A DNA stretch of 18,938 nt, taken from positions 1 through 18,938 of the forward strand of contig WRIF01000003.1 in NCBI GenBank assembly GCA_009782865.1. Direction: 5' to 3'. The notes under the pieces are model-generated. The model was not told the DNA's origin, ran no database searches, and saw nothing but the letters and a program-made list of their open reading frames with translations. This document shows positions 1,514 to 9,134 of the stretch, one piece after another. This DNA comes from Promicromonosporaceae bacterium (GTDB lineage: Bacteria > Actinomycetota > Actinomycetes > Actinomycetales > Cellulomonadaceae). Position numbers and translations under genes: made by a program. Every line of letters begins with the position of its first letter. The first letter of the stretch is position 1.

Positions 1514-2722
1514 ATGAGTAATGTACTAGTGCTGAACGCCGGCTCCTCGTCCCTGAAGTACCAGTTGGTCAACCCGGTAACGTCCGAGGTGCTGGCCGAC
1601 GGCATCGTCGAGAAGATTGGCGAGGACGTGTCGCGCGTCAAGCACGAAGGCGTGTCCGTGAAGGTCACCCGCGACCTGCAGATCGCCGACCACGCCGAGG
1701 CCCTCAAGGTGGTCCTCGACCTGTACGAGGACCTCGGTCCGCGCCTGAGCGAGGTAGGGGTGGCCGCCGTTGGGCACCGCGTGGTGCACGGTGGCCCCAC
1801 CTATTCCGCGCCCGTGGTCATCAACGACGATGTGGTTGCCGGCATCGAGGCCCTCGTCCCCCTGGCCCCGCTGCACAACCCGGCAAATGTCACCGGCATC
1901 AGGGTCGCCCGGCAGATGCTGCCCGACGTTCCGCACGTCGCCGTCTTCGACACCGCCTTCTTCTCGACGCTCAAGCCCGAGGCCTACACCTATGCCATCG
2001 ACGCCGACCTGGCCAAGCAGCACCACATCCGCCGCTACGGCTTCCACGGCACCTCCCACCAGTACGTCTCTGGGAAGGTCTCGGAACTCCTGGGGCGCGA
2101 TGACCTCAAGCAGGTGGTGCTGCACCTGGGCAACGGCGCCTCGGCCTCGGCGGTGAAGAATGGGGTGGCCGTGGACACCTCCATGGGCTTGACCCCCCTG
2201 GAGGGCCTGATCATGGGCACCCGTTCCGGCGACCTTGACCCGGCCATCATCTTCCACCTGCACCGCGTGGCCGGCATGGACCTGGCCGAGCTGGACGACC
2301 TGCTCAACAAGCAGTCGGGCATCAAGGGCCTCTACGGCGACAACGACATGCGCAAGCTGGAGACCGACTGGTACGCGGGCATTCCCAAGGCACACCTGGT
2401 GATGGACATCTACCGCCACCGCCTCACCCACTATGTCGGCGCCTACGCCGCCGTGATGGGCGGGATCGACGTGCTGACCTTCACCGCCGGGGTGGGCGAG
2501 AACGACCCGCAGCTGCGCCTGGACATGGCAGAGGCCCTCAGCTTCCTCGGCTTTGCCATCGACCGCGAGAAGAACGCCCCGCGCTCCAAGGAGGCCCGCA
2601 ACGTCTCCCCCGATGGCCACGAAGGCCCGCAGGTGATGGTGGTGCCCACCAACGAGGAACTGGCCATCGCCCAGCAGACGGTGGCAACGCTCGACGGCAT
2701 CCGCGTCGACCTGGCGGACTAA
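1514..2722 (+). CDS. ackA: Acetate kinase
   Basis: 402 aa, full length for the family. Converts acetyl phosphate plus ADP to acetate plus ATP in the cytosol (reversible); the energy-yielding last step of acetate fermentation. Diagnostic motifs are VLVLNAGSSSLKYQL (residues 4-18, ATP/acetate kinase signature 1), GHRVVHGG, RRYGFHGTSHQYV (signature 2), LGNGASASAV, TPLEGLIMGTRSGDLDP and FTAGVGEND. The usual partner, phosphotransacetylase (pta), is not next to it: upstream lies a ROK regulator and downstream a guaB3 remnant. Acetyl phosphate may therefore come from a pta or phosphoketolase encoded elsewhere. No Shine-Dalgarno is seen and the ATG is probably the first codon of the mRNA. Confidence 0.97.
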   Translation: MSNVLVLNAGSSSLKYQLVNPVTSEVLADGIVEKIGEDVSRVKHEGVSVKVTRDLQIADHAEALKVVLDLYEDLGPRLSEVGVAAVGHRVVHGGPTYSAPVVINDDVVAGIEALVPLAPLHNPANVTGIRVARQMLPDVPHVAVFDTAFFSTLKPEAYTYAIDADLAKQHHIRRYGFHGTSHQYVSGKVSELLGRDDLKQVVLHLGNGASASAVKNGVAVDTSMGLTPLEGLIMGTRSGDLDPAIIFHLHRVAGMDLAELDDLLNKQSGIKGLYGDNDMRKLETDWYAGIPKAHLVMDIYRHRLTHYVGAYAAVMGGIDVLTFTAGVGENDPQLRLDMAEALSFLGFAIDREKNAPRSKEARNVSPDGHEGPQVMVVPTNEELAIAQQTVATLDGIRVDLAD

Positions 2723-2756: not shown

Positions 2757-2824
2757 CCCCTTACGCTGCGGCGTAGGGGGTGACGACCACCCCGACGCGC
2801 TGGGACTCCTTTACCCAGGAGTAG
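2757..2824 (-). repeat. Direct repeat, left copy, flanking the ATPase gene
   Basis: This copy pairs with 4395-4462 in the same orientation (offset 1638). The longest exact block is about 24 bases (2768-2791 against 4406-4429). Recombination between the copies would remove the ATPase gene and leave one intact hybrid guaB3 3' end. Confidence 0.75.
2761..2824 (-). pseudogene. Remnant of the 3' end of a second guaB3
   Basis: The minus strand, ending in TAA at 2761-2763, reads NYSWVKESQRVGVVVTPYAAA. The living GuaB3 tail at 4399 reads GYSDPKEFQRVEVVVTPYAAS, giving 15 of 21 residues identical in the same frame. The nucleotide match runs from 2757 to about 2824 (about 57 of 68 bases without gaps). 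Changes keep the frame and are mostly conservative, so this looks like the end of an orthologous guaB3 from a diverged donor or ancestor, not a fresh copy. No start or other GuaB3 sequence is attached; upstream on this strand the match stops and the promoter region of the ATPase gene begins. It is not expected to make protein. Confidence 0.8.
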
Positions 2825-2864
2825 TTGCGCGGGCAACACCCAACTCCCCCAGGTTGCATAAGTG

Positions 2865-2892
2865 TAGTTATGATAACTAAGGTTATGGTAAC
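2865..2892. promoter_or_regulatory. Two tandem A/T-rich palindromes before the ATPase gene
   Basis: GTTATGATAAC (2867-2877) and GTTATGGTAAC (2882-2892) repeat with a 15-base period. The first extends to a perfect dyad TAGTTA-TGA-TAACTA (2865-2879). Each contains a -10-like hexamer (TATGAT 2869-2874, TATGGT 2884-2889). This is among the most A/T-rich stretches in the window and ends 2 bases before the proposed GTG start. It could be a tandem operator with overlapping promoter, or a terminal repeat of the insert. Confidence 0.55.
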
Positions 2893-2894
2893 TT

Positions 2895-4385
2895 GTGGGT
2901 GTGGAGTTTCCCGCCAAGCCCGCCGAACTGTTCGCCCGCGATCGAGAGTGGGCCGCGCTGTGCAGGTTCGCCACCGACCAGGCACCGGGAGCAACGCTCG
3001 GCGTGGTGACCGGGCGTCGCCGCCAAGGCAAGACCTACCTCCTGCGCGCGCTAACACAGGCCTTGGGCGGCTTCTACTTCGCCGCCACCGAGGCATCCGA
3101 CTCTGAGACCCTTCGCCGCCTCGGGGTTGAACTGGGCAGGTTCCTCCAGACCCCGGCGGCCATGACCTTGCGCGATTGGCATGAAGCCTTCGATGCGCTC
3201 CTGGCGCTAGGACGTGAACGTGCCATCCCCCTAGTCATCGACGAGTTTCCCTACCTACTCGCCGCCAACCCGGCGATTTCGTCCATCCTGCAGGACGCCT
3301 TGACGCCGCTGCGCGAGGAGCGCGAGACGTCGCAGTCCCGACTCCTGCTGTGTGGCTCCGCCCTATCGGTCATGGGCCGCCTGCTGGTCGGGTCGGCCCC
3401 CCTGCGCGGGAGGGCGAGCCTGGAACTGGTCGTCCACCCCCTTGACTATCGACTGGCGGCTGGCTTCTGGAACCAGGACGACCCCCACACCGCACTGAAG
3501 GTTCATGCCGTTGTCGGAGGGACTCCGGCCTACCGCCGAGAGTTCGTGCGCGACGACGTGCCAACCGACCCTGCCGACTTCGACAACTGGGTCTGCCGCA
3601 CGGTCTTGTCTCCAAGCAGTCCCCTGTTTCGCGAGGCTCGATACCTGCTGGCCGAAGAACCCGGACTGCGCGACGCTTCGACCTACCACTCCGTGCTCGC
3701 CGCCGTCGCGAGCGGCAACTCAACACGAGGCCGAATCGCCTCTTTTGTCGGTCGCAAATCTGGCGACCTGGCCCACCCCCTGACCGTGCTAGAAGACGCC
3801 GGATTACTGAGGCGCGATCCCGACGCCTTCCGCGCCAATCGCTCCGAGTTCCACATAGCCGAACCGCTACTCGCCTTCCACCATGCCGTCATGCGTCCCA
3901 TCTGGGCCGACCTGGAGGCCGCCCGCGACCCGCGGGACCTCTGGACGAGCTCTCAGCAGACATTCTCTGCCAACGTGCTCGGGCCGCACTTCGAGCGAGT
4001 GGCTAGGCAATGGCTACGGTTCTTCGCCCCCGCAACCACCCTGCGCCGACAGCCAACCTCGGTTCTGAGCGGGACCGTCAACGATGCGCTCGCCCGTACC
4101 AGCCATAAGATCGACATAGCCGCCTTCGCCGCAGCCGACGACGGGGGCAAGACGCTGCTCGCCATCGGGGAGGTGAAATGGGGAGAGGTCGTAGGCCGAC
4201 CGCACCTGGATCGACTTCAAAAGGTCAAGGGCCTGCTGACCGCGGCCGAACACCGCGGTGCGTCCGATTGCCAACTGATGCTGGTCTCGGCAGCGGGCTT
4301 CTCCGAGACGCTGATCGAACGGGCCGCCAACTCAGACGAACTCGTCCTGGTCAACACGACAGACCTCTACACCCAACTGGGGTAG
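2895..4385 (+). CDS. AAA-type ATPase with C-terminal DUF234-like PD-(D/E)XK nuclease domain
   Basis: 496 aa. The N-terminus carries the FxxRxxE entry motif (LFARDREW), Walker A GRRRQGKT (40-47) and Walker B VIDEFPYL (114-121), then a sensor-like strand RLLLCGSA near 150. This matches the archaeal-type ATPase_2 family. A winged-helix-like middle (about 265-325) precedes a C-terminal domain with KIDIAAF (Asp407) and GEVKW (Glu426, Lys428), the D...ExK signature of the PD-(D/E)XK nuclease fold predicted for DUF234. Members are widespread, but their cellular role is not established; defence or mobile-element functions are speculation. The gene stands alone between two copies of the guaB3 3' end and uses more codons such as CTA, ACA and TCA than its neighbours, suggesting transfer. 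The GTG at 2901 is an alternative start. Confidence 0.85.
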   Translation: MGVEFPAKPAELFARDREWAALCRFATDQAPGATLGVVTGRRRQGKTYLLRALTQALGGFYFAATEASDSETLRRLGVELGRFLQTPAAMTLRDWHEAFDALLALGRERAIPLVIDEFPYLLAANPAISSILQDALTPLREERETSQSRLLLCGSALSVMGRLLVGSAPLRGRASLELVVHPLDYRLAAGFWNQDDPHTALKVHAVVGGTPAYRREFVRDDVPTDPADFDNWVCRTVLSPSSPLFREARYLLAEEPGLRDASTYHSVLAAVASGNSTRGRIASFVGRKSGDLAHPLTVLEDAGLLRRDPDAFRANRSEFHIAEPLLAFHHAVMRPIWADLEAARDPRDLWTSSQQTFSANVLGPHFERVARQWLRFFAPATTLRRQPTSVLSGTVNDALARTSHKIDIAAFAAADDGGKTLLAIGEVKWGEVVGRPHLDRLQKVKGLLTAAEHRGASDCQLMLVSAAGFSETLIERAANSDELVLVNTTDLYTQLG

Positions 4386-4398
4386 TAGCGCATACCCC
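4379..4398. terminator. Short dyad between the ATPase and guaB3 stop codons
   Basis: GGGGTA (4379-4384) and TACCCC (4393-4398) form 6-bp arms with an 8-base loop. The dyad spans the ATPase stop and fills the 13 bases between the two convergent stop codons. It is too short to be a confident terminator. Confidence 0.3.
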
Positions 4399-4462
4399 TT
4401 AGGAGGCGGCGTAGGGGGTGACGACCACCTCGACGCGCTGGAACTCCTTGGGGTCGGAGTAG
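4395..4462 (-). repeat. Direct repeat, right copy: 3' end of living guaB3
   Basis: This matches 2757-2824 at about 57 of 68 positions without gaps. It is part of the coding sequence of guaB3 and supplies its last 21 codons and stop. Confidence 0.75.
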
Positions 4463-5529
4463 CCGCAGGTGGCCATCGCCCGGCGCAGGGCGCCGACCAG
4501 GTTGAGCGTGCCGTTGGCCTGGTCGCAGGGGCCGTGGATGATCTGCTCAAGGGAGCCGGCGGTGCCGACGTTGACGCGCTCCCCGCGCGGCAGCTCGGGG
4601 TGGTGCGCCTCGGAGCCCCAGTGCCACCCGGCCCCCGGCGCCTCGGTGGCCCGGGCCAGGGCGGTGCCGAGCATCACGGCGTCGGCGCCCATGGCAATCG
4701 CCTTGACGATGTCACCGGAACGGCCCAGCGAACCATCGGCGATCACGTGGACGTATCGCCCCCCCGACTCGTCGAGGTAGTCACGCCGCGCGGCGGCAAC
4801 ATCGGAGACCGTGGTGGCCATCGGGGCGTGAATGCCCAGGGCCATCCGGGTGGTGCTGGCCGCGCCGCCGCCGAAACCGGCGAGCACCCCGGCGGCCCCG
4901 GTGCGCATCAGGTGCAGCGCGGAGGTGTAGGTGCAGGCGCCGCCGACGATCACCGGCACATCAAGGTCGTAGATGAACTGCTTGAGGTTGAGCGGCTCGG
5001 CCGCAGACGAGACATGCTCGGCCGAGACGGTGGTGCCGCGAATCACAAACATGTCGACCCCGGCGTCCAGCACCGTCCGGTAGTGCTCGGCGGTGCGCTG
5101 GGGCGACAGCGCCCCGGCCACGGTGACGCCGGCATCGCGAATCTCTCCCAGGCGGGCGGCGATCAGCTCGGGCTTGATCGGCTCGGCGTAGATCTGCTGC
5201 ATGCGCCGGGTGGCGCCCTTGCCGGGCAGGCGGGAGATCTCGGCCAACAGCGGCAGCGGATCGTCGTACCGGGTCCACAGGCCCTCCAGGTCGAGGACGC
5301 CCAGGCCGCCGAGCCTGCCGAGGGCCACGGCGGTGGCCGGGCTCATCGCAGAGTCCATCGGGGCCGCGACGATGGGAGTCTCAAACTGGTAGGCATCGCA
5401 CTGCCATTTGGTGGAGACGTCCTCCGGGTCGCGGGTGCGCCGGGAGGGAATCACGGCGATGTCGTCGAAGGTGAAGGCCCTGCGTCCGCGCTTGGCGCGC
5501 CCAATCTCGATGTCGATGCTCACGGGCAC
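4399..5529 (-). CDS. guaB3: GuaB3, IMP dehydrogenase-family protein without CBS domains
   Basis: 376 aa from the GTG at 5529. The fold is an IMPDH/GMP-reductase barrel without the CBS insert: FDDIAVIPSRRTRDP near the N-terminus, VAAPMDSAMS, VIVGGACTYTSALHLMRTG, then the phosphate end DAVMLGTALARATE. At the position of the IMPDH catalytic cysteine (SICTTR in the GuaB encoded at 6544-8037) it has AASTTR, that is Ser225. It therefore probably does not perform the standard IMPDH reaction. GuaB3 proteins accompany guaB in actinobacteria and their activity is not settled; I recall an XMP-reductase activity for a cyanobacterial member. A -10-like TAGGCT lies 6 bases before the in-frame GTG at 5523, so the true start may be that leaderless GTG, two codons shorter. 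Its 3' end is the repeat that flanks the ATPase gene. Confidence 0.93.
   Translation of the reverse strand: MPVSIDIEIGRAKRGRRAFTFDDIAVIPSRRTRDPEDVSTKWQCDAYQFETPIVAAPMDSAMSPATAVALGRLGGLGVLDLEGLWTRYDDPLPLLAEISRLPGKGATRRMQQIYAEPIKPELIAARLGEIRDAGVTVAGALSPQRTAEHYRTVLDAGVDMFVIRGTTVSAEHVSSAAEPLNLKQFIYDLDVPVIVGGACTYTSALHLMRTGAAGVLAGFGGGAASTTRMALGIHAPMATTVSDVAAARRDYLDESGGRYVHVIADGSLGRSGDIVKAIAMGADAVMLGTALARATEAPGAGWHWGSEAHHPELPRGERVNVGTAGSLEQIIHGPCDQANGTLNLVGALRRAMATCGYSDPKEFQRVEVVVTPYAAS

Positions 5530-6543: not shown

Positions 6544-9134
<2,591 letters not shown>

Follow-up and report, generated by a model that had tools for sequence, protein, structure and literature searches.

With a probability of roughly 0.7, the window (the whole stretch of 18,938 nucleotides that was analyzed) contains a small integrated unit that rebuilt the 3' end of guaB3 and that is a relic or a passenger of a tyrosine-integrase element targeting the 3' ends of genes. 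According to the proposed mechanism, incoming DNA with its own guaB3 3' end and an ATPase gene would have recombined at the 3' end of the resident guaB3. A working guaB3 would have been rebuilt in this way, and the old 3' end would have been left past the ATPase gene, beside ackA. The two guaB3 ends would represent present or former attL- and attR-like repeats, and the unit would be either a one-gene relic of a tyrosine-integrase element like those at tRNA-Ser(gga), or a passenger of such an element, mobilized in cis or in trans. The action of a tyrosine integrase at guaB3 is proposed by analogy with a site of a different genus, where the integrases were observed.

The target gene guaB3 (4399..5529, minus strand) encodes a member of the IMP dehydrogenase family (Pfam IMPDH, 7.7e-40), its 3' end is intact, and it shares 74-84% identity over the matched length with those same-genus genes that gave near full-length matches. 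Its functional 3' end (4395..4462, minus strand) recurs in the same orientation at 2757..2824 (minus strand), next to the acetate kinase gene ackA (1514..2722, plus strand; Pfam Acetate_kinase), which flanks the unit past the stranded end. A recount confirmed the claim of the sequence-only reading that about 57 of 68 bases are identical. The matching 68 bases comprise 20 codons, the stop codon, and four bases past the stop. In frame, the functional end reads YSDPKEFQRVEVVVTPYAAS and the stranded end YSWVKESQRVGVVVTPYAAA; 15 of the 20 residues are identical, such that the earlier figure of "15 of 21" was correct for the identical residues and off by one for the total, which is 20 residues plus the stop. 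The next-best ungapped match of the 68-mer on both strands of the window reached 38/68, compared with the observed 57/68, and a chance origin of the repeat was therefore ruled out. Six codons differ between the two copies, five of them non-synonymously, which fits an end that was released from selection. The copy at 4395..4462 is read as the rebuilt, putatively element-borne, attL-like end and that at 2757..2824 as the presumably displaced, attR-like original; the position of the stranded copy on the ackA side is the one predicted by displacement of the old end.

The search for guaB3 and the ATPase comprised 59 genomes, including that of the window. Among the 58 relatives, guaB3 was found in 56 and a relative of the ATPase in nine. 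Comparison of the places revealed that the ATPase relative was located at guaB3 in none of these nine; the closest spacings of the two genes on a shared contig were about 58 kb (G004) and 100 kb (G012). The guaB3 loci of 29 relatives (L015-L043) were read with 1.5-kb flanks, and a second guaB3 end was not present within about 1.49 kb downstream in any of them. Relatives with two guaB3 ends and no ATPase, which the sequence-only reading had named as evidence against an insertion, were thus not encountered, and a conserved stand-alone second end was ruled out (0/29 for both). The comparison of ackA-guaB3 junctions that it had proposed showed ackA converging on a single guaB3 end in four of the 29 relatives (L026, L032, L037, and L038). 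These single ends and the converging ackA indicate that a guaB3-ackA arrangement with one end is likely ancestral and that the ATPase gene arrived between the two genes. A scan of 394 genomes for guaB3 ends was uninformative, as not even the window's own stranded copy was reported.

In all 29 relatives GuaB3 ended in SPY and further residues, and both window copies ended in TPYAA. The presence of TPYAA in both copies and its absence from the 29 relatives imply either that the donor was very close or that the end was copied locally. Local copying would mean that the resident guaB3 end was duplicated, either in tandem or as a target-site duplication of very great length, with later decay of the ackA-side copy. 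This would account for the TPYAA ending and the post-stop bases common to both copies as well as for the predominance of non-synonymous changes in the stranded one. Nevertheless, we regard it as highly improbable, because two related cases, at a tRNA gene of Nocardia and at a protein gene of Pseudofrankia, argue against it.

In Nocardia lijiangensis, a related ATPase unit lies between two copies of a tRNA-Pro 3' region, and Nocardia amikacinitolerans contains the same tRNA-Pro neighborhood without the ATPase unit, with flanks of about 90% and 86% identity. Past the far, damaged tRNA-Pro copy of N. lijiangensis comes the same type of terminator as at the unoccupied site, and the near, intact copy precedes a different one, at variance with a local duplication. 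The other terminator at the near copy and the resident type at the far copy show that the rebuilt end arrived with the element at this site. By analogy, the functional guaB3 end would be element-borne and the ackA-side copy would be the original end. This tRNA-Pro locus is the single empty-site comparison of the study. Four Streptomyces regions (G508, G144, G500, and G512) were considered as empty tRNA-Ser sites and dropped: G508 and G500 have integrase genes just past the tRNA core, as does G512 beside its matching stretch, and the far flank of L147 contains an integrase remnant, so that none of the four was used.

In Pseudofrankia (L227, minus strand), the 3' end of an FMN-reductase gene is present four times within 16 kb, and the ATPase gene separates the third copy from the fourth. 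The fourth is 91% like the end of the intact gene, and the copy preceding the ATPase is about 76% like both the intact end and the fourth copy; where compared, the four copies are 74-91% alike, a divergence that also speaks against local duplication. The repeats look like successive units, each with its own end. Several genes separate the intact FMN-reductase gene from the ATPase gene in L227, which represents a protein-gene hotspot with tandem units.

The interval between the two guaB3 ends (2825-4394) is filled by the ATPase open reading frame (2895..4385, plus strand), apart from shorter overlapping frames. The claim that a single foreign-looking gene lies between the copies was borne out: the only sizable gene has 496 codons, and its third-position G+C content is 0.78, compared with 0.92 for ackA and guaB3. 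In the Pfam analysis AAA_22 passed the cut-off, and ATPase_2 scored 31.8 bits, under its curated cut-off of 33.2. The PADLOC model PDC-S27, for which the library supplies no curated cut-off, matched residues 12-374 (E 6.7e-17, 59.5 bits). A structure model of the protein has a pLDDT of 90, and the modeled fold resembles 2qen and 2fna, archaeal Walker/STAND ATPases of the ATPase_2 family; in contrast to these, the window protein has an additional C-terminal nuclease-like domain. In this domain D407, G425, and E426 are invariant among 45 sequences and K428 nearly so, and strands are predicted at 389-428 in the model. The signature of PD-(D/E)XK nucleases consists of an acidic D followed by E-x-K in a mixed alpha/beta core. 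We read the protein as a PDC-S27-like ATPase with a nuclease-like domain, and it probably represents defence cargo, the anti-phage role of PDC-S27 having candidate status.

Directly upstream of the ATPase start lies an inverted repeat (2865..2893) with 12-base arms and two mismatches. An inverted repeat whose center lies about 39 bp ahead of the matched start was found for 73 of 151 family members versus 39 of 335 control genes, and its sequence varies between clades. It is possibly an operator for autoregulation or another cis site.

Flanking repeats recurred around related ATPases at other gene ends. An ATPase of the same genus (L009, 32% identical) is bracketed by a 60-bp repeat of 90% identity, which is the 3' end of a PIN-domain gene. 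In a first test, 7 of 82 ATPase loci exceeded the largest of 321 mispaired controls, and in a second test 7 of 80 named loci scored above 35 bits; the same score was exceeded by 9 of 557 shifted segments and by 3 of 236 mispaired flanks. A non-redundant set of 144 loci with adequate flanks (8 of 152 loci with short flanks were dropped) was compared with 276 neighboring genes. Direct repeats above 35 bits within 600 bp were present at 12 ATPases versus 9 neighboring genes (one-sided Fisher p 0.024), and repeats above 45 bits at 11 versus 4 (one-sided Fisher p 0.002). The control genes were mostly drawn from near these ATPases; among the 131 that do not adjoin an ATPase, three had repeats above 35 bits and one above 45 bits. 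The excess of flanking repeats at ATPase genes is real and modest, with no repeats above 35 bits at 132 of the 144 ATPases.

The repeat targets include tRNA-Ser, tRNA-Pro, a terminator beside tRNA-Gly, the PIN gene, the end of a beta-propeller gene, the FMN-reductase end, and a Nocardia gene without a Pfam match. L111 and L128, with repeats of 28 bp and 71 bp, were counted without an identified target gene, and L157 is a weaker case because its target belongs to a paralogous family. One-gene units were found at several targets (the window, L009, L091, and L159). Together with the single ends in relatives, the same architecture at other gene ends supports the earlier proposal of an insertion footprint at a gene 3' end. 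At L190, a Fic-family gene (6556-7851) adjoins the ATPase gene and itself lies within a 54-bp direct repeat of 79.6% identity.

The orientation of neighboring tRNA genes was uniform. After removal of a tRNA predicted inside the L136 ATPase and of 10 duplicate loci, all 17 tRNAs within 1.6 kb of an ATPase, at 15 loci, pointed their 3' ends toward the ATPase; the loci include several close relatives and thus represent fewer than 15 independent events. For protein-gene neighbors a 3'-end bias was not found: at least one 3' end faced the ATPase in 104 of 128 cases versus 97 of 108 controls. In 8 of the 15 tRNA loci the far side has a second copy of the tRNA 3' end, or in the case of tRNA-Gly a copy of the terminator next to it, and no such copy was found in the other 7.

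The tRNA-Ser(gga) 3' core was found near the ATPase in 15 of 152 loci, on both sides in nine of them. These 15 ATPases cluster on a tree of 145 (7 of the 152 loci were left out), requiring 6 changes, compared with 14.6 on average and never fewer than 13 over 200 shuffles. In L181, L154, L147, L161, L163, L148, and L150 the shared stretch starts at or near the anticodon loop, where tyrosine integrases habitually cross over; in L139 and L166 it starts elsewhere. Other genes near tRNA-Ser encode a type I restriction subunit (L225), an HD-CE ATPase (L166), VapB (L161), and a Gp3-like directionality factor (L181). The Frankia locus L225 (1571-7757) is an example of a tRNA-Ser hotspot with varied cargo. 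At L181, the gene with a Pfam match to Gp3-like recombination directionality factors (4169-5341) lies directly behind the ATPase gene, and at L144 the gene in this position (6601-7563) starts like that of L181. In G372, two tRNA-Lys genes around an ATPase enclose mostly ordinary-looking genes.

A 54-bp tRNA-Ser core (at most three mismatches) was detected in 111 of 121 Streptomyces genomes, many of which contain multiple copies, and 20 regions (L310-L329) were picked for having at least two cores. In at least 6 of these 20 chosen regions a PF00589 integrase starts 154-184 bp past a core, and 6 of the 20 contain an ATPase relative in or beside the element; the one in G458 is broken into two frames. 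Between cores of G547 lies a 3.2-kb unit with an interrupted integrase (an open frame of about 300 codons, with similarity spanning 440) and a related ATPase of the DUF234 type, the kind of L009; Pfam DUF234 was not reported for the window ATPase. The ATPase unit of Streptomyces pini (L147) has a C-terminal remnant of such an integrase behind it, and the ATPase of Streptomyces carminius (L161) is succeeded by two tRNA-Ser copies that enclose a partial second ATPase-like stretch. In the G458 region (L319, 1328-2787), tRNA, ATPase, and core form a clean unit of about 2 kb, whose split ATPase makes it look like a decaying copy. The tRNA-Ser(gga) elements resemble the window unit in rebuilding a 3' end and in their association with ATPase relatives; they differ in that integrases lie beside the core in at least 6 of the 20 regions, whereas the window unit has none and targets a protein gene.

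These observations bear on two further explanations. Plain homologous plus illegitimate recombination would have introduced guaB3-ATPase DNA of a close donor by one-sided homology and without a site-specific recombinase. The lineage-specific TPYAA ending of both copies and a unit without a recombinase would be expected in this case. However, the recurrence of the footprint at several unrelated 3' ends, the uniform orientation of the tRNAs (17/17), the tandem arrays in which separate units repeat the same end, and the integrases at the tRNA-Ser site fit site-specific integration better, and we consider this explanation unlikely. The evidence thus favors the option "decayed or trans-mobilised" of the sequence-only reading over its option of plain homologous recombination with a diverged donor.

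The ATPase could also be the agent rather than the cargo: the inverted repeat and the ATPase gene would form an autonomous one-gene element, and the nuclease-like domain would drive insertion at 3' ends with a carried replacement end and without an integrase. The one-gene units at several targets and the inverted repeat at a conserved upstream position are compatible with this idea, as are related Streptomyces ATPases at different sites, for which DNA conservation often begins only about 50-90 bp before the gene and ends close to its stop codon. Yet tyrosine integrases occur at tRNA-Ser, the best-sampled site, one of them in a unit with a related ATPase, other cargo is found at the same site, and most ATPase relatives lack repeats. 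In view of the integrases in particular, a self-moving ATPase is disfavored and appears very unlikely. One tRNA-Ser site has units of both types, some with an integrase and some lacking it, which makes the question of "cargo or agent?" testable.

As previously claimed, the window unit encodes no integrase. Counting against a relic or passenger of an integrase element, the reading that we prefer, neither an integrase nor an integrase remnant was found at guaB3, and none of the PF00589 matches listed for G000 (four of five) was on contig C3. Nor was a genome with an integrase element at guaB3 found, which also counts against this reading. The PF00589 search comprised 14 genomes with bracketed ATPases, in 10 of which the ATPase contig was placed. 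In 8 of these 10, none of the listed matches was on the ATPase contig, and in the other two the nearest listed integrase was at a distance of 936 kb (G318) and about 67 kb (G595). In support of mobility, the two members have no flank in common in 103 of 185 pairs of ATPases with at least 90% identity, which are non-independent, compared with one common flank in 47 pairs and two in 35. Four phage records matched the ATPase. Clear flanking repeats were found neither for three Rhizobium plasmid ATPases (29% identical) at one common locus nor for one plasmid copy each from Streptomycetaceae and Mesorhizobium. In L234 (2400-8500) and related Rhizobium plasmids, the interval between TetR and tkt holds a distant ATPase relative in some cases; in other Rhizobium plasmids it holds a set of DUF4173, histidine kinase, and response regulator genes.

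Integrase-free units are known from actinomycetes. Three papers (PMC5704250, PMC7563491, PMC9513070) describe CIMEs and decayed ICEs that kept their direct repeats, lost their integrases wholly or partially, and underwent accretion, and the authors of PMC7563491 state that their own method was unable to detect single CIMEs. The window unit is best accounted for as an integrase-free, att-bracketed, CIME-like unit. Like CIMEs as described in these papers, it is integrated at a gene 3' end with att-like repeats, one of which forms the working guaB3 end, and the ATPase gene as its sole sizable open reading frame leaves no integrase or transfer genes inside. It is likened to CIMEs by its repeats and the absence of an integrase, the definition of CIMEs also including an origin from an ICE or IME through deletion; without its own integrase it is not a self-contained tyrosine-recombinase element. 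CIMEs are, according to the same papers, found in tandem with other units, and the window unit differs from them by its single gene, its guaB3 target, and one ATPase family as the repeated cargo.

The matched PDC-S27 is presented in PMC12988326 as a single-gene defence candidate from guilt-by-embedding, its anti-phage function being that of a candidate only. In the open-licence literature guaB3 was not found as an integration site, in agreement with the earlier statement that it is not commonly described; the one paper that came up on this question deals, by its listing, with genetic engineering. A prophage with a name ending in guaB appears in PMC10111431. ATPase units of this kind were not found in the open-licence titles and abstract openings searched. 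The integrase-free, att-bracketed kind of unit is known; the searches of this literature yielded no example of its one-gene form, of repeated occurrence on a single gene family, or of guaB3 as its site.

Together, these findings indicate that att-bracketed units which rebuild gene ends, among them the end of the housekeeping gene guaB3, can carry a single gene of one ATPase family as their only cargo. Surveys that start from integrases overlook such units, and the units offer a handle on the spread of a candidate-defence ATPase family.
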